Shown here piece by piece: positions 5,885 through 42,205 of a DNA stretch of 64,000 nt. A program made the position numbers and the translations under genes. The notes beneath the pieces are model-generated. The model did not search any database, was not told the DNA's origin, and saw nothing but the letters and a program-made list of their open reading frames with translations. Source of the stretch: Pseudomonas sp. FP1742 (lineage in GTDB: Bacteria; Pseudomonadota; Gammaproteobacteria; Pseudomonadales; Pseudomonadaceae); NCBI RefSeq assembly GCF_030687145.1, contig NZ_CP117460.1:4030001-4094000 (forward strand), in the 5' to 3' direction. The number at the start of each line of letters is the position of its first letter. Within the stretch, counting starts at the first letter, position 1.

Positions 5885-5975
5885 CCCGCCCCCCCACCAC
5901 CGGTTTCTATTCAGCTGAAAACTATCCAGAAGGCGTTGTGACCACATCAACTCTGCAGCGCGCATGGAGTGAACG

Positions 5976-6707
5976 ATGGCAACTTCCGCCCAGAACACGC
6001 CGCCACAACCGGTCCAGCGTCCGGGAATGATCGTCTCAGCCATCAGCCTGGTCCTGCGCATCATCGGTTTGCTGATCGCCACGTTGCTGTTCTCGATTCT
6101 GATTGAATTCGCTGGTTTGCTGCTGTTCTGGAGTGATCAGGGCTGGCGGCACAGCCAGGCCATGCTGACCAGTGAACTGGGCTGGCTCAGCGAGCACTTC
6201 AAATCTTCACTTCTCATCCAACAGCCTGGGCCAACGATTATCCAGATGCTGGATTTCCTCAATCAGTGGCTGCTGGTCAAGACCGGCTTTGCAGATTTTT
6301 TCCTGCAGGCGCGGGTGTCGAGCCAAGGCAACGGTTTCTGGGGCTGGATCAACCAGCTCTACGTGGGTATCGAGGACTTTGTCCTTGCGGCGGTGTATGT
6401 CACCTTCACCTTCGTGGTGCGCCTGAGCATTCTGGTCCTGGCGACACCCTTGTTTCTGCTGGCCGCGCTCACCGGTTTGGTCGATGGTTTGATGCGTCGC
6501 GACCTGCGAAAATTTGGCGCAGGGCGGGAAAGCAGCTTTGTTTATCACAGGGCTAAACGAGCAGTGATACCACTGCTAGTCGTGCCCTGGATCATTTATC
6601 TGTCACTGCCCTTTTCGCTCAATCCCATAGTTATTTTTTTGCCTTGCGCGGTAGTACTTGGAACGGCGGTAGCGATCACAGTGACGACATTCAAAAAATA
6701 TCTCTAG
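5976..6707 (+). CDS. ICE membrane protein, TIGR03747/DUF4400 family
   Basis: A 243-residue integral membrane protein with hydrophobic segments near residues 20-48, 135-170 and 195-235. A basic stretch, 'MRRDLRKFGAGRESSFVYHRAKR', spans about residues 171-193. This pattern and the place after traD match the PFL_4697 family (DUF4400). It probably assists the coupling protein at the inner membrane, as inferred from constant gene pairing. The region downstream departs from the standard layout because a cargo gene follows. Confidence 0.87.
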   Translation: MATSAQNTPPQPVQRPGMIVSAISLVLRIIGLLIATLLFSILIEFAGLLLFWSDQGWRHSQAMLTSELGWLSEHFKSSLLIQQPGPTIIQMLDFLNQWLLVKTGFADFFLQARVSSQGNGFWGWINQLYVGIEDFVLAAVYVTFTFVVRLSILVLATPLFLLAALTGLVDGLMRRDLRKFGAGRESSFVYHRAKRAVIPLLVVPWIIYLSLPFSLNPIVIFLPCAVVLGTAVAITVTTFKKYL

Positions 6708-6815
6708 ACGCTTAGCGAAGCTATTTTCCCATTAGCCCTACGCTTTCAACTCAAGCTGCCGAAACAAATCATGTTTACAGCGGACGACTCAAAATCAACG
6801 GAAGGAAGGCAATAG

Positions 6816-8096
6816 ATGAACGCACAGTCAAACGCTTCAGAAGAAGCGATCAGGACACAAAACACTGAAACACAAAATCAAAGTTCGATAGGTTATATCC
6901 AGGTTTTCTTGGAAATTCTAAATGATGGCAAGTGGTGGTTGGCCCCCATGGCTAGCCTAATTTCGATCTTACTGCTGTCGAAGTATTTATGGGTCATCGG
7001 TCATCCAGAATTGATCCTGAGTTCCATTGGAAGTCCCTCGAATCTGCTAGTTTGGCTGATCTTTACGGTACTTGGCTTTCTACTACTGCTGGTAACCTTC
7101 TCAGTACCGTCGCTGTCATTCATGCTTTGCATGGGCTTGGTTGAACCTGGACGCGACTTAGAACCGGTGCTTGCCAAACACTTGAGCTGGGTGATCGCAG
7201 TTGGCTTCGGAATAATGGCGTTGAATCTTCTGGCCTCCACGTTTGATCTTGAGCTGGCACCATGGTTGACGTTCGCGCTGGTGACGGTCATATCGATGTT
7301 GGCGGCGAAGGTATTGCTGTCTAAACACAAGGAGCTCGCCGACGCGGCATTTGAGGTACCGCAAGGTCAAAAAAAAACGATGCACCATAAAGCTCATCGA
7401 TACCTACGAATGACGCTATTGGGCTTCCTGTTAGCGTTTACCGCAATGAGCGGAGTCCTACCTGCGCAAATCGCGCTGCTGGCTTGGCGAGGAGCTGAAA
7501 ATGGCTGGGAGGCGCGAGCAGCCATTGGAGTCTGCCTACTCGTAATGATGATCTATCTAGTCCCAGTAATTTTGTTCTATTCGTTTAAGGGGAGTCTGAT
7601 ACAACGCGCCGGCAAAGCATCTCTTGCTATGTTAGGGGCTATTTTTCTCAATGCCATGCTAATGCCCGCAATTTTCGACATCTGGGTATATTCCGCCGCC
7701 AACCTGCTTAAACTTCGTGACAATCGACCTCTCGGCTATGTGCTGGATGTAAAGGACTATCCTAAAGCCCTATTTGAGTCCGCTCCCTGGGAACGTCAGT
7801 CATTCGAGGGCACAGAGGGTCTCTACAGCGTGAGCGCCTTTCGCCAATTCCGTTTTGGCGACGTTCTACTTCTATGTCCGGGACGTTACGCCGGACTTTC
7901 ACTCAAGCTCCTTGACGCTTTTTCCGATCGTTGCATCGCAGTTTCAGACGCAAAAGTGAAAGCGGCCGCGAAGCGCACGCCGGTAGCAACACGCCCACTT
8001 CCAGAGCCGTCTTGTCTATTGGCGGCACGTGTACCTACCAGGATTCCGTTGCCGATAGGAGATTCCGTGCATTGTATCTATAGGACTATTTTCTAA
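6816..8096 (+). CDS. Multi-pass membrane protein of unknown function (probable cargo)
   Basis: This 426-residue protein starts at an ATG preceded by a good ribosome-binding site (GGAAGGAAGG). It has about eight hydrophobic segments in two groups (about residues 40-170 and 195-300). A soluble C-terminal domain of roughly 120 residues follows, with a Cys near each end. I recognise no family. It lies between the TIGR03747-type and RAQPRD genes, which are usually close neighbours, and it is more AT-rich than both. Gaps of 109 and 231 bases isolate it from the transfer genes, so it looks like an insertion with its own expression. Confidence 0.7.
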   Translation: MNAQSNASEEAIRTQNTETQNQSSIGYIQVFLEILNDGKWWLAPMASLISILLLSKYLWVIGHPELILSSIGSPSNLLVWLIFTVLGFLLLLVTFSVPSLSFMLCMGLVEPGRDLEPVLAKHLSWVIAVGFGIMALNLLASTFDLELAPWLTFALVTVISMLAAKVLLSKHKELADAAFEVPQGQKKTMHHKAHRYLRMTLLGFLLAFTAMSGVLPAQIALLAWRGAENGWEARAAIGVCLLVMMIYLVPVILFYSFKGSLIQRAGKASLAMLGAIFLNAMLMPAIFDIWVYSAANLLKLRDNRPLGYVLDVKDYPKALFESAPWERQSFEGTEGLYSVSAFRQFRFGDVLLLCPGRYAGLSLKLLDAFSDRCIAVSDAKVKAAAKRTPVATRPLPEPSCLLAARVPTRIPLPIGDSVHCIYRTIF

Positions 8097-23665: not shown

Positions 23666-25387
23666 ATGCTCAGTTTGTTTCGCCACAAAAGGAAGAAGCC
23701 CCCTCCGCCATCGACCGTGAGTGTCGCCGAAGGTTACCTACCCATCGAGTCGGCCCACAGCTTGTTAGCAGCGGAGCACCGCCACCAGTTGCTCGATCGC
23801 ATCTGGCAGTACACCGCCCTCTCCCACGCGCAGTTCATCCAACTCTATTTAAATCCGATCCATCGCTACGCCGAACAGGTCCAGCAACTCCCGGCCAGCG
23901 AGACGCACCACCATGCTTATCTCGGGGGCATTCTCGACCATGGACTGGAGCTGGTCGCTTGCAGTTTGAAACTGCGTCAGTCGTACCTACTGCCCACCGG
24001 CGCCGCGCCCGAAGACCAGGCCGCCCAGACCGACGCTTGGTCCGCTGGCATCGCCTATGGCGCCCTGCTGCATGACATCGGCAAGATCGCCGTGGACCTG
24101 CAGGTCGAACGCCAGGATGGCCGGCTTTGGCATCCTTGGCAGGGTCCCCTGGATCAGCCCTACCGTTTTCGTTACCTCAAAGGTCGTGACTACCACCTGC
24201 ACGGTGCCGCCGCAGGCTTGCTCTATACCCAGATTCTCGACCGCTCGATCCTGGACTGGCTCAGTGGATTTCCGTCGCTGTGGGCCAGTCTGCTGTATGT
24301 CCTGGCCGGTCAGTATGAACATGCTGGTGTGCTGGGCGAACTGGTGATTCAAGCCGACCGCGTCTCCACCGCGCAGAACATCGGCGGCAACCCAAGCAAG
24401 GCGCTGCAAGCGCCGATTCATTCGCTGCAACATCACTTGATCAGCGGACTGCGTCATCTGGTTCAACATGAGCTGAAACTCAACCAACCGGGTGCCGCGG
24501 GTTGGTTGACTCAAGACGCACTGTGGCTGGTCAGCAAGACGGTCACGGACAAGCTGCGAGCCTATCTGCTGTCACAATCGATTGAGGGCATTCCCTCATC
24601 CAACATCGCAGTGTTCGATGAACTGCAATCTCATGGGCTGGTCGAGTCGACCCCGGAAGGCAAAGCCATCTGGACCGCGCTTGTCGTGCAGGGATACTGG
24701 CAGCAGAGCTTCACCTTCCTGCGCCTTCAACCGACGTTGATTTGGGGGAATGAAGACCGGCCTGAGGCTTTCAGCGGAACAGTGAGCATGGCAGCCGATG
24801 ACCACCCGACTGACGCTCCGGCATCACCACCGCCCATGGCGGTGAATAAAAAACCAACTCAAAGCCCATCGCAGCCAGATCTCTTGGCCATGGAAGATGC
24901 CGACTACCTCGGAACGTTACTGGACATGTTCGAATTGGCAGACCCCGAGGCCACTGATGCACCGTCAGAAAGCGCCCTCGAAATATCAAGCCCCCCTTCG
25001 GACAACCCTGGCCAGGCATTCTTGAATTGGGTCAAGGAAGGCATCCTGAGCCACAAGCTGGTCATCAATGACAGCAAGGCCAAAATCCACACAGTGGGTG
25101 GCAGCGTATTTCTGGTCACGCCTGGTCTCTTCCAACGCTACGCGCAGGAGTTTCCTGGTATCTCACAGGGTACCGATCAAGAGATTGAAGAATGGCGTTG
25201 GGTGCAGAAGCAGTTCGAGAAACTGAAGGTCCACAAGAGGCGAGACAACGGTCTGAATATCTGGGCATGCCAAGTGCAAGGCCCAAGGAAGAAAACCACC
25301 TTGAAGGGATATCTGATCGAGGAACCGAAGTTACTTTTTGAATCGATACCACCAGATAATCCTTTTCTGAAAATCGAAAAATATTAA
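23666..25387 (+). CDS. traI: MobH-family relaxase (TraI_2 domain)
   Basis: A 573-residue relaxase of the MobH type, which nicks oriT and pilots the strand into the recipient. The N-terminal TraI_2 domain carries HHH (residues 81-83) and an HD motif in 'LLHDIGK' (His136, Asp137), the metal-binding pattern of this class. A variable acidic linker spans about residues 375-445. The C-terminal TraI_2_C (DUF1528) domain ('FLNWVKEGILSHKLVINDSKAKIHTV') follows. AGG precedes the ATG. In related ICEs the integrase lies just downstream, but here it is absent. Confidence 0.95.
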   Translation: MLSLFRHKRKKPPPPSTVSVAEGYLPIESAHSLLAAEHRHQLLDRIWQYTALSHAQFIQLYLNPIHRYAEQVQQLPASETHHHAYLGGILDHGLELVACSLKLRQSYLLPTGAAPEDQAAQTDAWSAGIAYGALLHDIGKIAVDLQVERQDGRLWHPWQGPLDQPYRFRYLKGRDYHLHGAAAGLLYTQILDRSILDWLSGFPSLWASLLYVLAGQYEHAGVLGELVIQADRVSTAQNIGGNPSKALQAPIHSLQHHLISGLRHLVQHELKLNQPGAAGWLTQDALWLVSKTVTDKLRAYLLSQSIEGIPSSNIAVFDELQSHGLVESTPEGKAIWTALVVQGYWQQSFTFLRLQPTLIWGNEDRPEAFSGTVSMAADDHPTDAPASPPPMAVNKKPTQSPSQPDLLAMEDADYLGTLLDMFELADPEATDAPSESALEISSPPSDNPGQAFLNWVKEGILSHKLVINDSKAKIHTVGGSVFLVTPGLFQRYAQEFPGISQGTDQEIEEWRWVQKQFEKLKVHKRRDNGLNIWACQVQGPRKKTTLKGYLIEEPKLLFESIPPDNPFLKIEKY

Positions 25388-27791: not shown

Positions 27792-28937
27792 ATGAAATTA
27801 GTATCTTTAAAGTATTCAGAAAATATCGGCCATGACCGAGAATGGATTCTTAACGAACTCACGCTTGGCGACAAAAACTTAATCGTCGGACGTAACTCTG
27901 CTGGTAAGTCTAGAACTCTGCACGTACTCGGAAGCCTGGCTCGCATTTTAACAAGCTCTCAATATATGCTACCAACATCGTGCAAATACCATTGCGAATG
28001 GACTAACAGCTCCGGCAGCCTGTACGCATATGAATACACTGTGGAAAATAGCCGCATCACACTAGAACGACTAACTATCGATAACAAAATCTATATCGAC
28101 AGGAAGGAAGTTGGTTTCGGAGTCATTTACTACGAACAAGTTAATGGAGGGACGAATCTTCCATTTCAATCGCCAGAAAATGAATTTGCAATAGCTAAAC
28201 GCCGAGATGTTTTACAGCATTCCTTCATAGAACCTCTTCATCTCTGGGCATCTGAATTAAGGCATTTCTTTTTTGGAAGCGCTTTCGGCAAGGACCAGCT
28301 TGCAGTCTTCATACCAAATATGCCACCGGTTGACGAACGAGATTCAAATCAAGTTGTTGGTTTATTTAGGAATGCTGTACGAGATTTCGGAGACGAGTTT
28401 CTTAATTCAATTTTACAAGACATGCAACATCTTGGTTACGACTTGCAATCGGTAGAGTTGGGCTTTCCTGTTTCTATAGACCCTCTCGTTGTGCCGCCCG
28501 GACTGAACTGTATAAAAATCAAGGAAGTCGGCGTTAGAGGACATGTAGATCAACTTACAATGTCGCAAGGCATGTACAGGGTCCTAGCTCTTTTAGTTAA
28601 TGTTAACTACCTACTACTAAAAAAGACAAGCACTTGTGTAATCATTGATGATATCGGCGAGGGACTTGACTTTGAACGCTCCTGCAAACTCATATCTTTA
28701 TTGAGACAAAAAGCTCAAGACTCAAATATTCAAATAATAATGTCTACGAATGATAGATTCGTCATGAATGAAGTACCTTTATCCGAGTGGACTGTTCTGC
28801 ACCGCATCGGCTCTGAGGTCCATGTAAGCAACTACCACAACTCCAAAGAAAAATTCGACGAGTTTAGATTTACAGGATTAAGCAATTTTTCATTTTTTGA
28901 AATGGATTACCTAACAGATCAAGGTGAGGAACTATAA
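27792..28937 (+). CDS. AAA/ABC-type ATPase of a two-gene defence-like module
   Basis: A 381-residue ATPase of the AAA_21/OLD-like type. Walker A is GRNSAGKS (residues 33-40). A signature-like 'MSQGMYR' is near residue 257. Walker B is 'CVIIDDIGEGLD' near 282-293, with an Asp in place of the first Glu of the usual DE pair. It begins at an ATG behind AGGAAG. Its stop shares one base with the start of the next gene (TAATG), so the two proteins are made together. Codons are AT-rich, unlike the ICE. ATPase plus TOPRIM-like pairs are known from PARIS, AbiL and Gabija phage defence; this pair is not one I can name. Confidence 0.88.
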   Translation: MKLVSLKYSENIGHDREWILNELTLGDKNLIVGRNSAGKSRTLHVLGSLARILTSSQYMLPTSCKYHCEWTNSSGSLYAYEYTVENSRITLERLTIDNKIYIDRKEVGFGVIYYEQVNGGTNLPFQSPENEFAIAKRRDVLQHSFIEPLHLWASELRHFFFGSAFGKDQLAVFIPNMPPVDERDSNQVVGLFRNAVRDFGDEFLNSILQDMQHLGYDLQSVELGFPVSIDPLVVPPGLNCIKIKEVGVRGHVDQLTMSQGMYRVLALLVNVNYLLLKKTSTCVIIDDIGEGLDFERSCKLISLLRQKAQDSNIQIIMSTNDRFVMNEVPLSEWTVLHRIGSEVHVSNYHNSKEKFDEFRFTGLSNFSFFEMDYLTDQGEEL

Positions 28938-29641
28938 TGAGACGATTAGCATTTTTTGTAGAAGGATATTCTGAAATGCTTTTCGTGGAGAGACTTGTCG
29001 TAGCTATTGCGGGAAAAAATGAAGTTCGTATTGAAGAGATTAGAATCAAAGGCGGCAAAACTGTTCCGAAGAGCATTGTTACCGTAAAGGCGGCAGATGA
29101 TGACGTGGGTCAGCAATACTATATTTTGATAGTCGATTGCGGTGGAGATCACCAAGTAAGGACTAGACTTCAAGAAGAGCATCAAAACTTGACTGACAAA
29201 GGATATGAGAAAATCGTATGTGTTCGAGACGTCCGACCGTCATTTTCTCGCGCGGATATCCCTAAGCTTTATGCCGGTTTAAGAACTGGCTTAAACACGG
29301 ACCTTACACCCGTAGACTTTATTCTGTCTATCATGGAAGTCGAAGCGTGGTTTTTGGCTGAGTTCAATCACTACGAAAAAATAGATCCGTCACTTACACC
29401 AAGTATGGTAGCGTCGTTCCTCACATTCGATCCCACTACAGATGATCCAACCCTGAGAGATGAGCCTGCGGCGGATTTGAACAACTGCTATGCGTTGGTA
29501 GGTCAAGCGTATACAAAGGGCGATGTCACTCGCACAATGGACGCTCTTGATTACGCATACGTGTACACAGATTTGGGCGACCGCATACCGGAAATTAAAC
29601 GGCTGGTAGCGCATGTGGATTTATTTTTAACTCCAGAATGA
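28937..29641 (+). CDS. TOPRIM/DUF4276-like effector partner of the ATPase
   Basis: A 234-residue protein opening with 'FFVEGYSEMLFVERLV', the Glu-rich first motif of TOPRIM-like and DUF4276-type nucleases. 'YYILIVDCGGD' (acidic second motif) follows, then 'ILSIMEVEAWFLAE', a pattern seen in DUF4276/RloB-like proteins. It is therefore a candidate metal-dependent nuclease or effector released or fired by the ATPase. It is translationally coupled to the ATPase gene. Family assignment is from motifs only and is moderately sure. Confidence 0.82.
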   Translation: MRRLAFFVEGYSEMLFVERLVVAIAGKNEVRIEEIRIKGGKTVPKSIVTVKAADDDVGQQYYILIVDCGGDHQVRTRLQEEHQNLTDKGYEKIVCVRDVRPSFSRADIPKLYAGLRTGLNTDLTPVDFILSIMEVEAWFLAEFNHYEKIDPSLTPSMVASFLTFDPTTDDPTLRDEPAADLNNCYALVGQAYTKGDVTRTMDALDYAYVYTDLGDRIPEIKRLVAHVDLFLTPE

Positions 29642-30716: not shown

Positions 30717-31955
30717 ATGAAGATTTCACTGATCGATAACGGACTGGACTCTTTAAAAAAGGGTTATAAATATCTAGAAAGTTATGAGCGGCTTTTGGGC
30801 GCGGGCGCGACAGATCCCGAACGTTTTTCTGCCCTCAAAGATTCTACATTGTCGATACAGCATGGAATAGAAATTTTATTCAAATATTCCTTAAGGCAGC
30901 GCAATGAGCTTTTGCTATTTAATGATATAACAAAACTAAAAACTGCATTTCGCAACAGAAGAGAAGGCCTTATCAATGAGTTATATGAAGAGGATGGCGC
31001 TCACACCATATCCTTCAAAGAAACTATCGAACGCCTAATCGATATCTGCGGACTTCCTATTAATGAACGCTTTAAAAAGAAACTCCTCAAAGTGGAGAGC
31101 TGGAGGAACGGCATAACACATAGCGCCGTACTTCTAAACGAAATGGAGGTATCGAATGTTCTGGGAGGATTACTAGTTGATCTTGATAATTTTTTTGGTC
31201 CGGTTATCGGGGGCGAGTATCTTCAGGGGCAAGGGCGAGTTGAATTGGATCGTGCGTATCGCTTAACAAAAGCAGTGCATGGCGAACTAGAAAATAAGGT
31301 TAAGGCGCAAACGGTAGAGCGATTAATTAATGCACTACAAGCAAATAAGCTTCGAAACATCACAGCCCCAGGGGTTTTTTTAATCAACAATCCAAAGGTA
31401 GCCTGCTCTATATTGCAAGAAATACAAGATACTGAACATGGCTACGGGTGTGATTTTATAAATGGTCACTGTTCCGGAAAGGCGTCAATTAAGGACTTAG
31501 GGACTGATGGAAGGTTAACCATCTTTACTGAGGATAACGACACTTACTATCAGTTCCCACTTGGAAGCATGCTTATATACATACCTGAGATAAACAATAG
31601 CTTGTCCCCTCTTATCTTTCTGTATGCGACAGGCTCAAAGCCTATAGGGACGTCGCCATACATACGTGATAACGGTAATTATAAGGTACAGCACGGTGTG
31701 ATGTACGATGATTCCAGATCAGTGGATTGGAGCAAAGAAACCCGCCTGCAATATTACGACGACTACAATTCTGATGAACCTATATTGATGTCTCACAAAG
31801 AAATACTACATTTCCTAACAGCTGGCCCGGTTTGCTTTCTAAATGTAGGAAAGCTCGATTACGGATCGGCGCATCGACTCCTTGATGATAATAATTTTGC
31901 AGATGCGAGCCGGTTGTATGCTGAGTTTCAGCGCTACGTGGAGAGTCAAGAATAA
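30717..31955 (+). CDS. HEPN-like domain protein, first gene of a pair
   Basis: A 412-residue protein preceded by GAGGAGCAAGG. Its N-terminal 150 residues look like a HEPN RNase fold: a helix 'STLSIQHGIEILFKYSLRQRN' and, at residues 130-135, RNGITH, which fits the catalytic RNxxxH motif. The C-terminal two thirds have no recognised domain; 'GRLTIFTEDNDTYYQFPLGS' suggests a beta-rich region. HEPN proteins are RNA-cutting effectors in abortive infection and toxin systems. It is followed after 49 bases by a SEC-C protein on the same strand, and both are AT-rich. Confidence 0.8.
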   Translation: MKISLIDNGLDSLKKGYKYLESYERLLGAGATDPERFSALKDSTLSIQHGIEILFKYSLRQRNELLLFNDITKLKTAFRNRREGLINELYEEDGAHTISFKETIERLIDICGLPINERFKKKLLKVESWRNGITHSAVLLNEMEVSNVLGGLLVDLDNFFGPVIGGEYLQGQGRVELDRAYRLTKAVHGELENKVKAQTVERLINALQANKLRNITAPGVFLINNPKVACSILQEIQDTEHGYGCDFINGHCSGKASIKDLGTDGRLTIFTEDNDTYYQFPLGSMLIYIPEINNSLSPLIFLYATGSKPIGTSPYIRDNGNYKVQHGVMYDDSRSVDWSKETRLQYYDDYNSDEPILMSHKEILHFLTAGPVCFLNVGKLDYGSAHRLLDDNNFADASRLYAEFQRYVESQE

Positions 31956-32004
31956 CGAGTGGACTTTTTTTGCCAAGGATAGAAATCAAAAGTCAGGAGG
32001 CGAA

Positions 32005-33453
32005 GTGTTAAAGCCTATAATTAAAGAAGCAAGCGTAAACGATAGTGAGCGAATTCTAACAAAGGTCGCTACCACAACGTTTTTTAGCCTGTGGAGTTAC
32101 CCCAGCCTTTTTCGAGACGTAGATGGAGGCAAGGAGGTCGCTGACCTGACAGTGTATTTTAACAATACTCTCATACTATTCTCAGACAAGGGAGAGGTCC
32201 GATTTCAAACGGATAGACCTACGGATATTGCTTGGAAAAGGTGGTATCGGAGTGCGGTAAAAGACTCCGCCAAGCAACTCCATGGTGCTGAATCCTTTAT
32301 TAGGAAGTATCCAGATAGGATCTATCTTAATCAGAAATGCAAAGATCCTTTCCCCTTTGACATCTCCAATCCAGATTTAAAGATTCACTTAGTCTGTGTA
32401 ACACGAGGTATTGGTACAGCTGCGAAGGAGTATTTTGACTCTCTTGCTCCGGGAAGTGCAGGGACGCTAATCTCTCATTTTCCGTTGAATGAATACCAAA
32501 TTCTGGAACATCCATTTACTGTCAATGACATTGATCCTTCGAAAACGTTTGTGCATGTGCTAGACGAAACCGGAATAAATCTGTTGCTAACGGAACTTTC
32601 AACCCCCACCGATTTCATTAATTATTTGGCGGAGAAAGAGAAAGCTGTACGAAAGCTAAAATTGGTTATTGCAGGAGGGGAAGAAGATATCCTCGCCTAC
32701 TATCTTCTGGAACCCCAATCAGAGGGTTATGGTTCGATTCCGAACCCCGGAGCACAGTTTTCAACCCCCTTCATGATTCACGAGACGCTATGGTCGCAGT
32801 TTAGAGATACGATTGCATATGCGCTTCATTTCGCTCAAAACAAGCAAGGTAGGGGTTGGGCGGGAATACTAGAGCGCTTCTCGGATTGTATTATTAACGC
32901 GACTGTTGGAGAGGCAGCGGATCGTCCACTAATAGAGCATTCTAAAGTTTTAGAATTTTTAGCTTCCGAGAATATGTACTCAAGGGCATTTTTATCAAAA
33001 TCCTTATTTGATAAGTTTGGATTGGTTCCTGAGCTTGTAAGATCTGCAAGGATTGTAGAGTCCCTATGCTATCCGAATCGAATGTATGTATTCGTATTCT
33101 TCCCATGGGATGACGAGTATGCCGACTATCAAGACTATCGTGAGGAGCGGCTCTCCTGCATGCAGCTTTATGCGCTAGTTACACAATATAAATACCCAAA
33201 AGTCAAAGAGTTGATAGTTTTTGGTGCTGACACGAAGGGTTCCAGTGCTGCCTCGGAGACAATAATAGCATTTGACGCATCTATACCGTTGACTTCAGAA
33301 GAAAGAGCGCAGGCTCAAAGTGTAATGCGAACCTTTGATGTATTGCATGGGACTACTGAGACGAAAACTAAACATCCTTGTCATGCGGGTATTAAACGGA
33401 ATGATCCGTGCCCTTGCGGATCCGGAAAAAAATACAAAAAATGCTGCTGTTAA
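32005..33453 (+). CDS. SEC-C motif protein, partner of the HEPN protein
   Basis: The start is taken as the GTG at 32005, which follows a perfect AGGAGG by four bases; the frame is open further upstream but would overlap the HEPN gene. The 482-residue product ends with a SEC-C zinc motif ('NDPCPCGSGKKYKKCC'), as on SecA and many accessory proteins, where it binds zinc and often ribosomes or partners. The large N-terminal region ('KLVIAGGEEDILAYYLLE' near its middle) is unfamiliar. It may sense infection or control the HEPN RNase. That pairing is inferred from the operon arrangement alone. Confidence 0.8.
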   Translation: MLKPIIKEASVNDSERILTKVATTTFFSLWSYPSLFRDVDGGKEVADLTVYFNNTLILFSDKGEVRFQTDRPTDIAWKRWYRSAVKDSAKQLHGAESFIRKYPDRIYLNQKCKDPFPFDISNPDLKIHLVCVTRGIGTAAKEYFDSLAPGSAGTLISHFPLNEYQILEHPFTVNDIDPSKTFVHVLDETGINLLLTELSTPTDFINYLAEKEKAVRKLKLVIAGGEEDILAYYLLEPQSEGYGSIPNPGAQFSTPFMIHETLWSQFRDTIAYALHFAQNKQGRGWAGILERFSDCIINATVGEAADRPLIEHSKVLEFLASENMYSRAFLSKSLFDKFGLVPELVRSARIVESLCYPNRMYVFVFFPWDDEYADYQDYREERLSCMQLYALVTQYKYPKVKELIVFGADTKGSSAASETIIAFDASIPLTSEERAQAQSVMRTFDVLHGTTETKTKHPCHAGIKRNDPCPCGSGKKYKKCCC

Positions 33454-33486: not shown

Positions 33487-34143
33487 CTAGAGAGTGATTG
33501 GTGTTAGTTTTTCTCGCAGTGCTAACGATGTTTCGACGTTGGCGTTGAACTCCATTGCATTCCCGGGGACTGGAGTTTGACCGTGAGTGTGGAGTGCTAG
33601 CTGAGTGTTCATTTCTTGCAAGAGATCCAGTATCTCGCAGGTTACTTGGAAAAGATTGACCTCATCGGAACCAATCCAGTTTTTTGGTGCCTGCATCCGC
33701 TGACTGATACCAGCCATGCTTTGTCGTAACCCTTGAATCTTCTCCTGCATGTCGCCACCCACCGTGGCGTTGTACTTCTGCCCCACCACCAGGTTCAGAT
33801 CTCTCCCGGTGGCCTGATGCAGATCATCCACGGCCGCCAGACTCGCAGATCCGCCCGATAGCAACTTGAGCGCGCCCAGCGCCTCAATCGTTTTCACACC
33901 ACCCACCGTCTCGGTCGAATGATCGTCCACCGTCCTGGTGTGGCTCTGGTACTGCTCACGGTTCTCCAGAGCCTCAACCTCGCGCTCGATCGCCTTGTCC
34001 TGGATCTTGCCATCGGTCTGGCGCAACCAGTTGCCATCGCCGTCGACGCGCTGCTGGACAGCTTCGCTGTGCTGCCACACCTGATCGCCCTTCGGCACTT
34101 TGGGCATGCTTAGGCCGTGGGGCAGGATCGTCTGGATGAGCGT
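33487..34143 (-). pseudogene. VgrG/phage spike C-terminal remnant
   Basis: The frame is open from an upstream TAG at 34144-34146 to the stop at 33487. The first ATG is at 34107, but 'IQTILPHGLSMPKVPKGDQVW' reads through it, so the 5' part of the gene is missing. The repetitive 'TVGGDMQEKIQG' beta-spike segment and a 'MNTQLALHTHG' tail are typical of type VI secretion VgrG or phage gpV spike ends. With the rhs remnant it indicates a lost T6SS effector locus whose middle was replaced by defence-like cargo. Confidence 0.72.
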
Positions 34144-34362: not shown

Positions 34363-35226
34363 ATGGGAAACGTATCATCTGAGCGGCTAGAGCCTGGCGC
34401 CATCTACACAAGGAAAGATCTCAGACAGCTTTTCGACGTCAATGACGCCACCCTCAACAACGGTATTTTTCGGCCCAAAGGATACGATTCGGTTTGGCTA
34501 TTTGTGACAGAGAGGAAGACATCCGACCGGACTCAGTACGTTGATGCCCTTACGGACGACACTCTGGGCATGGAGGGGCAGCTTAAGGGACGAACAGACC
34601 ACCTAATTCTTGAGCACAGGAAACGTGGGCTCGAGCTACTGGTCTTCCATCGCCGGGAGAAATACGAGTATTCCGATGCGGGTTTCCGATACGAGGGAGC
34701 ATTCGTTTATGAAAGCCATTCGGGCTCGGGGCCCACCTCCTTCGTTTTAAGGCGCGAACGCACCAAAGGCAACGACCTCGATCCGAAGGAGATTGAGCGG
34801 AAGTTGGATGCCCAAGACGCGTTCAACCCTACCGACATCAGGGACGCACGAGAGCGATCTCTTGCCTCAATCGTTTTGCGACGCGGCCAGGCTCGATTTA
34901 GGAAGCTGCTGCTACATGCCTACCAGGGACGTTGCGCCATCACGGGATGCGAACTCGAACCGATACTTGAGGCCGCGCACATCCATCCCTACCAAGGTGA
35001 TCAGACGGACGTGGTCTCCAACGGCCTGCTATTACGAGCTGACATTCATACTCTGTTCGATCTGGGGTTGTTCTGGATCGAACCAACGAATTTGTCGATT
35101 CGAATCTCTGATCGACTGAAATGTAGCGAGTACGCTTCGCTGGAGGGAAAACTTCTGACCCGTCCGGAAAGAGAGTCAGACCACCCCAGTCAGGCTGCTC
35201 TGGAATTCAGGCTCAAGTCTAAATAA
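34363..35226 (+). CDS. HNH endonuclease with DUF3427-like N-terminal domain
   Basis: A 287-residue protein. The N-terminal half ('PGAIYTRKDLRQLF', 'SVWLFVTERK', 'YEGAFVYESHSGSGPTSFVLR') resembles the DUF3427/PUA-like module found on helicases and restriction proteins. The C-terminal half is an HNH_2 nuclease (about residues 190-245: 'CAITGC', 'EAAHIHPY', 'NGLLLRADIHTLFD'). Sensor-plus-HNH fusions of this type can cut foreign or modified DNA, so a stand-alone type IV-like restriction factor is a fair hypothesis. It is transcribed alone. Confidence 0.85.
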   Translation: MGNVSSERLEPGAIYTRKDLRQLFDVNDATLNNGIFRPKGYDSVWLFVTERKTSDRTQYVDALTDDTLGMEGQLKGRTDHLILEHRKRGLELLVFHRREKYEYSDAGFRYEGAFVYESHSGSGPTSFVLRRERTKGNDLDPKEIERKLDAQDAFNPTDIRDARERSLASIVLRRGQARFRKLLLHAYQGRCAITGCELEPILEAAHIHPYQGDQTDVVSNGLLLRADIHTLFDLGLFWIEPTNLSIRISDRLKCSEYASLEGKLLTRPERESDHPSQAALEFRLKSK

Positions 35227-35932: not shown

Positions 35933-36676
35933 ATGAAGCTCCGGGCAGGAATCACCGGTGAAGGTCTTAGTCTATGTTTCGGCGAATCAGAGTATCTGCG
36001 ACTTGAACCATCCCCAGACGCCAATCAAGTCTCGCCGAGAGGCAACTATGTCTACGCGCACTATGACGAGAAAGGCACGCCATTCTATATCGGAAAGGGG
36101 AAGGCGAGACGGGCATGGGACAAGTCGCGCCATCAGCTCTGGCATCGATATGTAGAGCGTCACTTAAAAAATAAATACACGATCCGCATACTCGCAGACA
36201 ACCTCTCTCCTGAGCAGGCCGAGAATCTCGAAGATGAATGGATTGCCCAAGAGTCAGATACCTTGGTCAATTGGATCAATTTTGGACGAAAGACTGACTT
36301 CGATGCACTGAATAAGTACCACGCACTTCGCAATGCAAACCGCGAACTCATTGTGGCAACTCGCTCACTGGAAAAGTCGGACCCAGAACTCGCCATCTCG
36401 CGCTACTACAAAGTCATTGCCGACACCGAGGCATACGCTTCACTGAAACTTGAACACGGGTTGATCGGCCTCCTGCTGGATGAGGAACAGAAGGAGTTCG
36501 GCTACTCGGGTGAACTGCAAGCCCTTGATCGTCTCACACTCTGCCTCACGCGCCTTGGACGCGCCCTTGAAGCTCGGTCTGCGGCAGAGGAGTACTTTGC
36601 AACATATCGGGCCGATCAGACGCTTCGCCTTGCCGAGTTGATCAAGAAGCGTGTTGCCAAAGCAACCCGATCATAG
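35933..36676 (+). CDS. GIY-YIG nuclease-like protein
   Basis: A 247-residue protein preceded by GAGGG. The GIY-YIG core is at about residues 38-115: 'GNYVYAHYDEKGTPFYIGKGKARRAW' supplies the two Tyr-containing strands and the catalytic Arg region. 'LSPEQAENLEDEWI' supplies the acidic (Glu) metal-site helix. The C-terminal half is helical and unfamiliar. Stand-alone GIY-YIG proteins occur in mobile elements and restriction systems. It lies downstream of the HNH gene but has its own spacer. Confidence 0.82.
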   Translation: MKLRAGITGEGLSLCFGESEYLRLEPSPDANQVSPRGNYVYAHYDEKGTPFYIGKGKARRAWDKSRHQLWHRYVERHLKNKYTIRILADNLSPEQAENLEDEWIAQESDTLVNWINFGRKTDFDALNKYHALRNANRELIVATRSLEKSDPELAISRYYKVIADTEAYASLKLEHGLIGLLLDEEQKEFGYSGELQALDRLTLCLTRLGRALEARSAAEEYFATYRADQTLRLAELIKKRVAKATRS

Positions 36677-37112: not shown

Positions 37113-40100
37113 TTACTTGTTCGCCGGTTCCTGCGGTGGTGCTGGGGGGAGCCACACTTCAATGATTGGTTTGTCGGGTGCACCAGCTAGCTCTCGCCGC
37201 TGCCAGGGACCGTTTTCGCCCCAACCGGCAGGTACGCCGCCGCCGGTGGTGGCCTTTCCCTTCGCAACAAGCTCTTCGGCGCATTCTCTGCTTTTGTCGG
37301 TGTACTGAATGACAGTAGGTTGAGCATACCCCCTGGGGATTTTTCGACCCTGACGGCGAGCAGTATCAACCACGTCTTCGATGGAGGAAACGTTGGCACC
37401 CAACTCTGTTGCCCATGCATTACGATAAAGTTCTGCCGCGTCGCGCAAGTCCGGGCCATAAATCTGGATGTAAACGGTGTAGCCCGCACATAGCTTCGCC
37501 CCACCAGGAGCCTGCGCTTTGCTTTTATTCTGAGTCTCGTCGGGGGCCGGTGCCATGCAGTTGTCAGGAACCTGAGCACCTGGGGCATACTGGCGGACCC
37601 AATATCGCGGCGCGCAATCCTGGCGCGGGGCCGGGGTCAGGCAGCTAGGCGCATCTTTGCTGGTCAGGATGCCGCAGAAAGGTGCCCTTTTATCAGAGTC
37701 TTGCAGACACTGATTTTTTGTCGTTTCCACCACAGTTTTCAAGTACCGATTCTGGCTGAAGTCATCAAAGCCGACTTTTTTACAACGTTGCTCAGCCACC
37801 CTTAGAATTGCAGCGGCCACTGCGTCCCACTGGGAAAACGCCAGCGGTGTTTTCGCCAGCGGTGTGCTCTCGGTGGCATCTAGGGCAGGCACTGAAGGGG
37901 GACTCTTGAGAGCATCTACGGCAACCGCCAGCGGAGTGTTCTTGGTGGCATCCATATACCGCCCATTGATCTCATTGGATTCTTCACTGCTGATCCCCTT
38001 GTTTGCGGTAGTGCGCTGCACCTGCGTATCGAAGGCCTGCCAGGCGGCGACGCCCGCCGACGCCACGGCTCCGAAGCTGAGCGTGGCGCTCACCGCCCCG
38101 GTTGAGACTAGCCGGGACACGCGCCGACCGCCGTTGAATTTCAGCTGTTTTTCGCCATTAACGGCGGTCACGATCACCGCCCCATCGTCGTCGGTAAAGT
38201 TGCTGAAGTATTTGGATAGCTCGCCTGCCGGAGGTATCGAGACGCCCTGTCCCAACCGGCAGCCCAACTGGAAATAGCTTTCCCACTGGGCCTCGCTGAA
38301 AAACTGGTCGGTGGTGGATTCCTGCGGGAACAAAGGGTTACTGGCCTTGAAGTTCTGCAGGTCAACCGGTACACCGTTGCACAGGTTGGGTTTCACGAGT
38401 ATCAGAAAGCCTTCGTGACCGGTGGCGCGGTAATGCACCTTGGCCAGCGCCAGGCAGGCGTCGCTGTCGTTGGCAGCGAGGTCGGCCAGTGCGCCATAGG
38501 CATCGGCGCTAATGGGTGAATTCGGACGCTGGAAGACGATGTCTACGTCCAGATCGATGCGCGCCTTGCGCACAAGGTTTTCCAAGTCTTCGAAGCGGTA
38601 GGCAGGATCTGCGCCACAGTCAGCGAGCACGATCAGTTCGCATTCCTCGCGCAGCAGCGCATAGGCACCGGTATTGTCGAAATGGCCGCCATCGGTGAGG
38701 AACCAGTGGCGCCGGGCGCGGCCGGCGAAACGCCCGGTCAACTCGGCAAACAACAGGGAGTACTTGCCCCATACAGCGTCGCGAGACTGGGCGCTGTCCC
38801 ACCAATACCCCAGACGGATGCCAGCCATGGTCAAAAGTGCCGCAAGACCCGAGCGCGTACTGGCGCCGAGGCCAGGCGCGAAAGCGGCGCCGGAGATCGC
38901 CATCCAGTCGCCCAGGCCCATTGCCTGTTCGGGTGTCATGTGCTCCCAACCGCCGCGAGCAACGCGCAGCAACCCGCCGGGGCCGACCGTCATGGACTCG
39001 CCTTTGCGGTCACTGTTGAAAATACCGCCTCGCGGATCCTGGGTCTGGTTGATGCAGACATTGAGCAGCTGTACCGCCCCGCCGCTGCGATACGGCGCAT
39101 AGTTCGTCAGCGCAATATCGTCCTCCGCCACCGGCACCGCTACCGCCAAGTCGTCGGGATTGGGTGCGCGCCGTTGCATTGGTCCTATGTTGCCGAGGGT
39201 CATCCTCTCGCGAGTGCTGGCGCCCAGGTAAGCCCGCATCAATCGCGCACGGTAGAACGGCTGCAATGAGGAGCGATTGAGAAAATCCAGATTGCCCAGT
39301 GACGTCAGCACCAGCAACAACACCGGCAGCGCCAGACTCATCAAGGCGAACCCGCCGTACTGGTAAAAGGCAATCTGGGCGCCGTCACGGAACAACGCCG
39401 CGGTGACCAGGCCCTGCACGACGCTGACCCAGAACACCAGCAAGGCGGCGAGCAGGCCTATGCCGGCAATACTGAACAGTCCCAATAGCGCACTTCGGGC
39501 CACCGGGGGGAGGCTTTTCGGCATGTTGGCGATCATCGGCAGCGCCACGCGCAACGCAATGCCCACGATGACGAGGGCTGGCCCCAGATTGTCCGTGTTG
39601 CGATTGCGCGCCAAGTGCCAGGCCAGTTGGTCCACCCAACCAAGCAGCACGGTCGCCAAGGCGAGGATGAGGATGCAGCCGAGCCAGCGGGTCAATTGGT
39701 TACGCGCGATATCAGCCTGATAATCGCGACGCCCGCGCATGACCGCCGACAGACAGGCCCCGCCAAACCACGCGCTCATGAACAGCACCCCCAGTATCAG
39801 CCAACCAGGGGGTATCGGCGCCCAGCGTCCAGTAGTCTGGCCCACCGCACTGAACTGACTCCAGGTCGCGTAGCCCACACAGCCGAGCCCGCTCAGCGCC
39901 GTCAGCGCGATGCAGGCTACGCGCGTGGTCGAGGGGCCCTTGGCGCGAGAGGGTAATAGCAAATAGGCGTAGCTCAGCATGCCCGCCACCAGTACCAGCA
40001 GCGGTAACAACAGGAAAAGGGTGGGCAGTGTTGCCGCCATTGGCAGCATGGACCACAAGACCGAGGTGCCGGTGGGCGGCGGGGCGCTGCCTGCCTGCCC

Positions 40101-40586
40101 ACTGGCCCAAGCCCAGACGAACAGGTCGATGGCAGCCAAGGCGCAGCCCAACAGCAGTCCCATGAGGCCAAGCTCCAGGTGCACGCCTAACAGGTTGCGG
40201 CCAAAGTTGGCGAAGGCAAACAACGTATCTTTCGCGCCATTGGGCGTCAGGTACCGGCCGTTGGCTCTCAGCCAATTGAGCCACCAGGAGGCTTCCATTC
40301 GCGCCAGCTCTGGCTCCAGCGCCTGGGCACTACCCGCCTCGTGCAACAGTTTGCCCAGGCTGGATCCGGCATAGCCCCCACCGGACACGGTGGACATCAG
40401 GTCGAATTGGCGAAACTGCCCCTTTTGCGCCAGCGCCTTGATCAGCCCGAGGCAGAAGGTGGCACTGCGAATGCCACCACCGGACAACGCCAAGCCCCAG
40501 TAACGCCGTTGTCCCGGCAGCGCGGGGGTGTACGCGGCCCGCCGTTGTTGCACCATTGCGTCTAAATCCGCGCCCGACTGAGCCAT
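37113..40586 (-). CDS. Giant patatin-like phospholipase with membrane segments
   Basis: The start is the ATG at 40586, behind an AGGAAT ribosome-binding site, giving 1157 residues; the open frame further upstream looks non-coding. The patatin domain is split. The oxyanion loop GGGIR (36-40) and the nucleophile Ser68 in 'STVSGGGYAG' lie N-terminal. About seven to nine membrane segments follow (about residues 130-500). The catalytic Asp is near residue 632 in 'LTDGGHFDNTGAYALL'. A C-terminal region of about 350 residues with a Cys-rich periplasmic-type part is unfamiliar. The expected activity is lipid acyl hydrolysis at the membrane. A defence or effector role is possible but unproven. Confidence 0.88.
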   Translation of the reverse strand: MAQSGADLDAMVQQRRAAYTPALPGQRRYWGLALSGGGIRSATFCLGLIKALAQKGQFRQFDLMSTVSGGGYAGSSLGKLLHEAGSAQALEPELARMEASWWLNWLRANGRYLTPNGAKDTLFAFANFGRNLLGVHLELGLMGLLLGCALAAIDLFVWAWASGQAGSAPPPTGTSVLWSMLPMAATLPTLFLLLPLLVLVAGMLSYAYLLLPSRAKGPSTTRVACIALTALSGLGCVGYATWSQFSAVGQTTGRWAPIPPGWLILGVLFMSAWFGGACLSAVMRGRRDYQADIARNQLTRWLGCILILALATVLLGWVDQLAWHLARNRNTDNLGPALVIVGIALRVALPMIANMPKSLPPVARSALLGLFSIAGIGLLAALLVFWVSVVQGLVTAALFRDGAQIAFYQYGGFALMSLALPVLLLVLTSLGNLDFLNRSSLQPFYRARLMRAYLGASTRERMTLGNIGPMQRRAPNPDDLAVAVPVAEDDIALTNYAPYRSGGAVQLLNVCINQTQDPRGGIFNSDRKGESMTVGPGGLLRVARGGWEHMTPEQAMGLGDWMAISGAAFAPGLGASTRSGLAALLTMAGIRLGYWWDSAQSRDAVWGKYSLLFAELTGRFAGRARRHWFLTDGGHFDNTGAYALLREECELIVLADCGADPAYRFEDLENLVRKARIDLDVDIVFQRPNSPISADAYGALADLAANDSDACLALAKVHYRATGHEGFLILVKPNLCNGVPVDLQNFKASNPLFPQESTTDQFFSEAQWESYFQLGCRLGQGVSIPPAGELSKYFSNFTDDDGAVIVTAVNGEKQLKFNGGRRVSRLVSTGAVSATLSFGAVASAGVAAWQAFDTQVQRTTANKGISSEESNEINGRYMDATKNTPLAVAVDALKSPPSVPALDATESTPLAKTPLAFSQWDAVAAAILRVAEQRCKKVGFDDFSQNRYLKTVVETTKNQCLQDSDKRAPFCGILTSKDAPSCLTPAPRQDCAPRYWVRQYAPGAQVPDNCMAPAPDETQNKSKAQAPGGAKLCAGYTVYIQIYGPDLRDAAELYRNAWATELGANVSSIEDVVDTARRQGRKIPRGYAQPTVIQYTDKSRECAEELVAKGKATTGGGVPAGWGENGPWQRRELAGAPDKPIIEVWLPPAPPQEPANK

Positions 40587-40948
40587 AGCGTATTCCTGCC
40601 TACCGCATGGCAATGCCATGCGCTGGGGGGTCAAGAGAATCGCGGGAAGGCAATACGGCAAGCTTAGCGTTCGGTGGTGCGCAACTGCCGTGTCTCCGCA
40701 AACAAGGGAACGGCGGCGCGCAGCTGGGTACCGGCAGCAACCATTTCGTGCACTATAGAACAGTAAATCGCGGCGTCCAGTCAGCGGTATGATGGAGCAT
40801 GACTTCGTTGATCTCACGCAAGTGACAGCCCAGCCGGATCGCAGGAAAGTGGGTTGGCCGGACGCTTACAAAGGGGATGCAAAAAAAGGGAGGTATGACT
40901 CACCCACTTAGGTGGCAAATCAGTTCAAGCACAAAATGATAAAGTGCC

Positions 40949-42205
40949 TCAACTGTTATCTCCTCCCCTGTCTTGTGCTTCCTGTATGCCACACACATAT
41001 CGTGACCAGTGATCCATTAACATTTGACGCTTCCCGAACAGATCTCCACGACGATAAGCAGCCTCAACCGCATTCTCTACTGTGTGTGCAAGCGCCTGTT
41101 CGCAAACCTCTCGAGGATAGTGGGTGACCTCACTCGCCCAGTCCCGAAAAGTTGAGCGAAATCCATGAGCCGTGAGATCGTTGCGCTTCATTCGACGTAA
41201 CACCATCAACATCGCCATATTACTCAGCGGCCTCCCTTTTCGAGCACCAGGAAATAGATGGTTGTTCCCTTCTACGCGAGGAAGACCGATCAGTAGATCC
41301 AATACAGCTTTCGACAGCGGAACCCGGTGCTCTTTCCCTGCTTTCATTCGCGACGCTGGAATGGTCCATATCCCTGCAACGAGATCAATCTCCGCCCACG
41401 TAGATAAGAGTACTTCGCTGGTTCGGCAGGCAGTCAGGATAGTGAAGCACAGGGCTTTAGAACTCAGATCTTCTGCTTGCTCAAGAGTCGCCACGAACTC
41501 GGGGAGCTCGGTCCATGGGATTGCTGCGTGATGTTTTACAGCACGCACTTTTTGGCGAGGAGGCAAAAGCTTGTCCAAGTGTCCTCGCCATCGAGCGGGG
41601 TTTTCGCCTGCGCGTAGGTCTCGAGCCTTTGCTGCGTCGAGGACAAGTTCGATACGGTTTCGCAAACGGCTAGCGGTTTCGGGCTTTTCTGTCCAAATTG
41701 GCTTGAGGATTTTCAGCACATGTTCAATGCCTATCTCCTGCGTGGGAAGATCGCCTATGACTTTGAACGCATAAGTAGTCAGCGTGTTCTTCCACTGTTG
41801 GGCGTGCTTGGCATTTTTCCAGCCCGCCTTATGGGCAGCGATGTAATCAAGAGCGACCTCCTTAAAGGTTATTGGTTTGGTCGGGGTTTCGCCCTCCGAT
41901 AGAAACGTGGCTTCTTTCTCCAGCCTTTTCCGCTCCAACGCCTCATCTCGACTCGCAATTGGATCGACTCCAGATCTACTCAACCTTCTAGCATCAGATG
42001 CTTTTTCCCGAGCTACCGCGAGACTTGTCTCTGGATGCTTTCCCAAGCCCATGTATCGGCTCTTTCCTGATAGTTTGTAGCGGAAAAGCCAACTTGCGCC
42101 ACCGGTAGGGCCAACTCTCAGATACAACCCATCTCCGTCATTGGTCATGCCAGGCAAGCCAGTCCTGACTATTTTCTCCACCGCCTTTGTCGTAAGTGAT
42201 GCCAT
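40949..42205 (-). CDS. int: P4-type tyrosine integrase
   Basis: A complete 418-residue tyrosine recombinase. The N-terminal arm-binding DUF4102 domain ('KAVEKIVRTGLPGMTNDGDGL') leads into a core-binding domain and a catalytic domain with Arg261, His347-x-x-Arg350 ('HGFRSTFRDWA'), His374 and Tyr384. It integrates and excises genomic islands, usually at tRNA or tmRNA ends. It reads leftwards from near 42.2 kb, so the island lies to its left and one attachment site should lie at about 42.21-42.43 kb. Confidence 0.95.
   Translation of the reverse strand: MASLTTKAVEKIVRTGLPGMTNDGDGLYLRVGPTGGASWLFRYKLSGKSRYMGLGKHPETSLAVAREKASDARRLSRSGVDPIASRDEALERKRLEKEATFLSEGETPTKPITFKEVALDYIAAHKAGWKNAKHAQQWKNTLTTYAFKVIGDLPTQEIGIEHVLKILKPIWTEKPETASRLRNRIELVLDAAKARDLRAGENPARWRGHLDKLLPPRQKVRAVKHHAAIPWTELPEFVATLEQAEDLSSKALCFTILTACRTSEVLLSTWAEIDLVAGIWTIPASRMKAGKEHRVPLSKAVLDLLIGLPRVEGNNHLFPGARKGRPLSNMAMLMVLRRMKRNDLTAHGFRSTFRDWASEVTHYPREVCEQALAHTVENAVEAAYRRGDLFGKRQMLMDHWSRYVCGIQEAQDRGGDNS

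Follow-up and report, generated by a model that had tools for sequence, protein, structure and literature searches.

Two known kinds of defence protein, HEPN enzymes and nuclease-type proteins, are represented by candidates that lie side by side in Pseudomonas sp. FP1742, within a 64,000-nucleotide stretch of DNA (contig NZ_CP117460.1, positions 4,030,001 to 4,094,000; hereafter the window). For gene 1 we predict a HEPN ribonuclease that has a distinct part at its C terminus, and for gene 2 a nuclease-like protein with a SEC-C tail. A preliminary description had taken them for a dedicated HEPN plus SEC-C two-gene system. Our analysis points instead, with a probability of roughly 0.6, to two defence-type cargo genes, each an independent single-gene unit, which occupy one slot beside the baseplate genes of a prophage and act by the mechanism proposed below.

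Comparison with described systems

The HEPN region of gene 1 resembles PDC-S64 of the PADLOC library, matching model positions 1-148 (E 5e-13), and all eight aligned gene 1 sequences match this model. However, the model is 339 positions long, of which only the N-terminal part is matched, and gene 1 is different in its C-terminal part. The PDC-S label denotes single-gene phage defence candidates; PDC-S64 does not appear in the papers listed by the literature searches. Gene 1 also shares its fold and catalytic motif with the HepT toxins of MntA-HepT pairs (6m6u and 7bxo) and with other HEPN domains. While HepT has about 130 residues and an MntA partner, gene 1 carries an extension of 247 residues and has no identified MntA-type neighbour in the window. 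Proteins of the DUF3644 type match the motif region, although only about 46 residues align in the window protein (E 5e-4). None of the PADLOC matches of gene 1 at E <= 1 is named ApeA, RloC, or Abi HEPN, the content of the library for these families being unchecked.

Gene 2 matches the family phrog_18195 over its full length. This family has no functional description, and the nuclease-like reading is added by the present analysis. The fold of the N-terminal part is like that of the catalytic domains of Nt.BspD6I and R.BspD6I and of the CRISPR nuclease Can2, but sequence identity is 10-14%, the accessory regions are different, and S60-D61-K62 of gene 2 replaces a literal (D/E)xK. No functional description of the exact architectures was found in the family libraries or the literature searched, and this applies above all to the combination of a nuclease-like phrog_18195 protein and an exchangeable SEC-C tail. 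That literature contained no paper combining SEC-C, HEPN, and defence, or SEC-C, phage defense, and nuclease, and among the papers listed by further searches the SEC-C phrases did not occur, which says nothing beyond the literature covered.

Layout and coding status of the gene pair

The features of the locus are collected in Table 1. As the preliminary description had it, the two genes are adjacent, co-oriented, and AT-rich: 49 nt separate the stop of gene 1 from the start of gene 2, and the GC content is 41.8% in gene 1 and 43.2% in gene 2 against 55.8% in the whole window. The GTG start of gene 2, likewise described before, indeed stands behind a perfect AGGAGG that ends four bases 5' of it. 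The intergenic RNA has no unusual structure (z -0.49). The nearest relatives, from P. koreensis, have amino-acid identities of 75% (gene 1) and 81% (gene 2), with synonymous differences at proportions of 0.81 and 0.89 (saturated) and nonsynonymous differences at 0.15 and 0.12, respectively. Because saturated synonymous change stands alongside this protein identity, both are real protein-coding genes under selection.

Table 1 Features of the gene pair and its immediate flank (window coordinates)
Feature	Position	Strand	Basis
Gene 1 (412 aa), predicted HEPN ribonuclease plus distinct C-terminal part	30717..31955	+	Relatives, AlphaFold2 model, fold match
HEPN domain, residues 1-165	30717..31211	+	PADLOC PDC-S64 match over residues 1-169; HEPN structures over 2-171
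E52-x3-K56, secondary HEPN motif, helix 2	30870..30884	+	Invariant in 8/8; helix 33-61; motif per PMC3710099
R130-N131-G-I-T-H135, HEPN catalytic motif, end of helix 117-135	31104..31121	+	R130, N131, H135 invariant in 8/8
Gene 1 C-terminal part, residues 166-412	31212..31952	+	Predicted secondary structure; conservation in 5 full-length sequences
AGGAGG ribosome-binding site of gene 2	31995..32000	+	Sequence
Gene 2, phrog_18195 protein, predicted nuclease-like, SEC-C tail, 482 aa	32005..33453	+	PHROGs match; predicted model
Gene 2 N-terminal domain (residues 1-231), predicted nuclease-like	32005..32697	+	
Putative active-site hairpin E44-x2-D47 ... S60-D61-K62	32134..32190	+	Identical in 22/22 aligned sequences
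SEC-C metal-binding tail, residues 465-481	33397..33447	+	Pfam PF02810, E 3e-9
Truncated phage baseplate gene beside the pair	33487..34107	-	phrog_4011 positions 119-314 of 315

Gene 1 carries a HEPN domain and a C-terminal extension

The RNGITH motif had been proposed as an RNase signature after a HEPN helix. When gene 1 is shuffled 10,000 times, a pattern of the form R[NDH]xxxH arises in 736 cases, and the motif alone is therefore little proof. The domain is nevertheless genuine, because R130, N131, and H135 are invariant in all eight aligned sequences (the window and seven relatives, three of these distant) and the predicted fold is that of a HEPN protein, as the preliminary description had expected. 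The best matches of the AlphaFold2 model are HEPN proteins, covering residues 2-171, and the model forms a helical bundle in which the motif closes helix 3. The spacing of R130 and H135 agrees with the Rx4-6H of the superfamily. In addition, PMC3710099 describes a polar residue directly after the motif arginine and a secondary Ex3[KR] motif; N131 supplies the former, and the equally invariant E52 and K56 supply the latter in helix 2. Gene 1 is most likely a HEPN ribonuclease and is predicted to cleave RNA.

Beyond this domain, the model shows a long helix followed by a strand-rich region, with pLDDT partly below 50. This part is kept in the five full-length sequences, and the three distant relatives give no convincing alignment to it. 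Sequence searches of solved structures returned a single match at E 0.54 with gene 1 as a single protein and zero matches at E <= 10 with its profile. Searched class-wide in 369 genomes, the HEPN part gave a single match other than the window itself (E 7e-6).

Gene 2 has a predicted nuclease-like core and a variable tail

Residues 1-480 of gene 2 match phrog_18195 positions 1-485 of 489 (E 1.2e-103). The N-terminal region had been called unfamiliar, a view that the predicted model (mean pLDDT 80, pTM 0.81) does not bear out: residues 5-278 resemble nucleases, the N terminus is structurally closest to catalytic domains from nicking and restriction enzymes, and the fold contains the helix-strands-helix-strand core of PD-(D/E)XK-type nucleases. 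A fold search in BFVD returned nothing at E <= 0.001, and many of the 50 matches listed (E 0.02-0.13) are labelled PD-(D/E)XK, RecB, Cas4, or exonuclease.

We aligned 22 gene 2 sequences, those of the window and 21 relatives, leaving out L049/L050, L077, L081 (in-frame stops), L003, L004, L069, and L085-L088 (L numbers denote loci and G numbers genomes). Throughout this alignment E15, E44, D47, D61, K62, and Q91 are retained, S60 is likewise identical, and the third strand holds S60-D61-K62 in every sequence. Since no literal (D/E)xK is present there, we term gene 2 nuclease-like and not a canonical member of the PD-(D/E)XK group; the invariant E44, D47, D61, and K62 could be a variant nuclease site.

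The C-terminal SEC-C zinc motif was recognized correctly at the outset (Table 1). It is absent from nine of the 22 aligned sequences (L053, L054, L055, L075, L076, L078, L079, L080, and L082), a count that excludes L051, which was flagged only because its sequence stops inside the motif. Seven of the nine end in a Lys/Arg-rich stretch, L053 and L082 being the exceptions. The tail is therefore dispensable. A different view would make gene 2 a Sec- or chaperone-related protein that is not a nuclease, its SEC-C motif binding SecB as in SecA and perhaps YecA. Among the Pfam and NCBIfam matches of gene 2, those to the tail alone are convincing, sequence searches of solved structures gave only SEC-C stretches and weak matches, and PMC8076867 reports SecB as a partner that the SecA-type metal-binding tail binds. 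We nevertheless regard this view as quite improbable, as residues 5-278 have a nuclease-like fold and the tail is lost in nine sequences, yet the six residues named above are kept in all 22.

The two genes occur mostly apart

In a first genome search with gene 2 including its tail, 257 of 293 genomes matched, nearly all listed places through SEC-C, and later searches were therefore run without the tail. Among 398 Pseudomonas genomes (gene 1 at E <= 1e-3, gene 2 at E <= 1e-10), gene 1 is found in four and gene 2 in 13; of these 16 carrying genomes, that of the window alone has the two together. An overlap of 0.13 genomes is expected by chance, with P = 0.12 for at least one. The other gene 1 carriers (G405, G604, and G607) have no gene 2 at E <= 1e-10.

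A pattern scan of an 84,980-species collection gave four more gene 1 loci, in Pseudomonas koreensis, extremorientalis, saxonica, and japonica, making five full-length loci with the window. Three loci on the same contig (L038, L039, and L047) were counted once, as L043 of P. koreensis, to which L039 is 100% identical over 9,261 nt, and L040, L041, and L042 (from G607, G604, and G405) were taken as L044, L046, and L045, with which they agree in identity and length. Gene 2 adjoins gene 1 in two of the five loci, those of the window and P. koreensis; the other three contain no gene 2 within the flanks covered (8 kb each side). Similarly, gene 1 is present at two of the 33 gene 2 loci inspected, namely the window, L043, L003, L004, L032, L033, L034, L048-L056 (9), L069, L071-L082 (12), and L085-L088 (4). 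Flanks are short or missing at L003, L004, L051, L069, L072, and L076, L033, L049, and L050 seem to be near-identical elements, and L054 and L077 apparently represent the same gene. Moreover, the two joint loci are homologous to each other over about 3.5 kb (72% nucleotide identity), a segment that takes in the neighbouring phage gene, and hence count as one event.

These counts bear on two readings in which the genes would work together. In a true two-gene abortive-infection module, gene 2 would sense or start an attack on phage DNA and gene 1 would kill by RNA cleavage, both being needed. The adjacency and common orientation of the genes in two Pseudomonas genomes, with gaps of 49 and 38 nt, and the purifying selection on both in the comparison of these genomes speak for such a module. 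Against it stand gene 1 without gene 2 at three of five loci and in the three genomes G405, G604, and G607, gene 2 without gene 1 at 31 of 33 loci, and the single origin of both joint loci. We consider it unlikely and rejected it as the principal explanation on the co-occurrence counts; the survey proposed with the preliminary description thus went against that description, the genes being mostly separate in what could be searched. A toxin-antitoxin pair, with gene 1 as HEPN toxin and gene 2 as its antidote or regulator, is very unlikely: the closest folds of gene 1 are HepT-type toxins of such pairs and gene 2 follows it directly, but the same three loci retain gene 1 without gene 2 and the same 31 gene 2 loci lack any gene 1 relative. 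Regular joint occurrence was not found, and gene 1 and gene 2 are probably not one two-part system, because each mostly occurs without the other among the relatives found.

A probable prophage slot with defence-type neighbours

The truncated baseplate gene lies directly downstream of gene 2. Longer copies of the phrog_4011 type lie next to the gene pair in P. koreensis and next to a solitary gene 1 in P. saxonica (L045), and a related baseplate piece stands beside gene 2 alone in L072 (43% over 76 residues). The site can therefore hold either gene or both. Upstream, the window has segment 26993-27571 in common with P. koreensis; in the interval from there to gene 1 the two carry different AbiLi-type ATPase genes, which fits a slot whose cargo can be exchanged. 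Computation shows the structure of the genes, their conservation, their predicted folds, their separate occurrence, and the mobile and defence-rich contexts.

Elsewhere, relatives of gene 2 lie near GajA/GajB (L071, L079, and L080) or PtuA (L055), and one follows an AbiH-annotated gene. These neighbours were chosen by eye from reading frames and are a non-random set, PADLOC having been run at four of the 33 loci besides the gene 1 loci. A gene 1 neighbour in L045 (5526-6869) had no PADLOC match. Further relatives sit between primase-type and major capsid genes (L033 at 5001-6473; L049 and L050 at 5953-7470) in prophage- or satellite-like elements. In addition, 142 of 72,556 plasmid records carry gene 2 relatives, 91 of the 142 being predicted conjugative and seven having been inspected individually. 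Neither gene matched phage records at E <= 0.01, and a close-DNA search of complete E. coli genomes with one satellite-type gene 2 copy gave zero matches. The many prophage, satellite-like, and plasmid contexts would also suit cargo of other use, such as controlling lysogeny, acting on kin of the phage itself, or stabilizing plasmids, rather than anti-phage function. We hold this to be rather unlikely, since known defence genes stand near gene 2 at several unrelated loci.

The defence-like neighbourhood described earlier for the window was also supported. At 27792-29641 there is an AAA ATPase gene (AbiLi E 3e-18, AriA 1e-10), and the gene right after it matches DUF4276 weakly (E 0.11), making an AbiL- or PARIS-like pair upstream of gene 1. 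Downstream of gene 2, an HNH_2 endonuclease gene (34363-35226, Pfam E 1.6e-14) scores too low to pass the cutoff set for the phosphorothioate-dependent restriction model, and the gene at 35933-36676 has only a weak PD-T4-3 match (E 0.011); the start of its protein resembles a GIY-YIG nuclease. On the minus strand, 37113-40817 encodes a 1,234-aa protein whose Patatin-like phospholipase match is barely over the cutoff (28.1 versus 27.7 bits). A TraI_2 conjugal-transfer helicase gene (23666-25387) and a tyrosine integrase gene (40949-42205) bracket this AT-rich stretch, which suggests cargo at the edge of integrative elements.

Proposed mechanism and significance

For both genes we infer catalysis, triggers, targets, and an anti-phage role as follows. 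Gene 1 and gene 2 would have come side by side in a slot for cargo that adjoins the baseplate (tail) genes of a Pseudomonas prophage, and this prophage would now be a remnant in the window genome. The N-terminal helical bundle of gene 1 would cut RNA via R130, N131, and H135, while the strand-rich C-terminal part most likely restrains the RNase until infection is sensed; once released, gene 1 would stop growth or translation, as in abortive infection. Gene 2 would combine a restriction-enzyme-like core (E44, D47, D61, and K62), a second region at about residues 230-447, and an exchangeable C-terminal tail. Whether a SEC-C zinc motif or a Lys/Arg-rich end, this tail probably docks the protein to a partner, and gene 2 most likely degrades invading nucleic acid.

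More broadly, we tentatively suggest, at somewhat less than even odds, that phrog_18195 comprises unrecognised single-gene anti-phage or anti-plasmid nucleases carried on conjugative plasmids, prophages, and phage satellites, with the C-terminal tail as an exchangeable docking module; in one branch this would be a SecA-type SEC-C zinc motif, which may link the nuclease activity to the Sec/SecB or translation machinery, and in another branch a basic tail.

The locus also teaches caution, as neighbours in a phage cargo slot can mimic a two-gene system. With gene 1 comes a HEPN enzyme whose extension is unusual and perhaps serves in sensing. For gene 2, a contentless label (SEC-C domain protein, phrog_18195) gives way to a testable nuclease hypothesis with named residues, in a family whose relatives reach into the plasmid records counted above.
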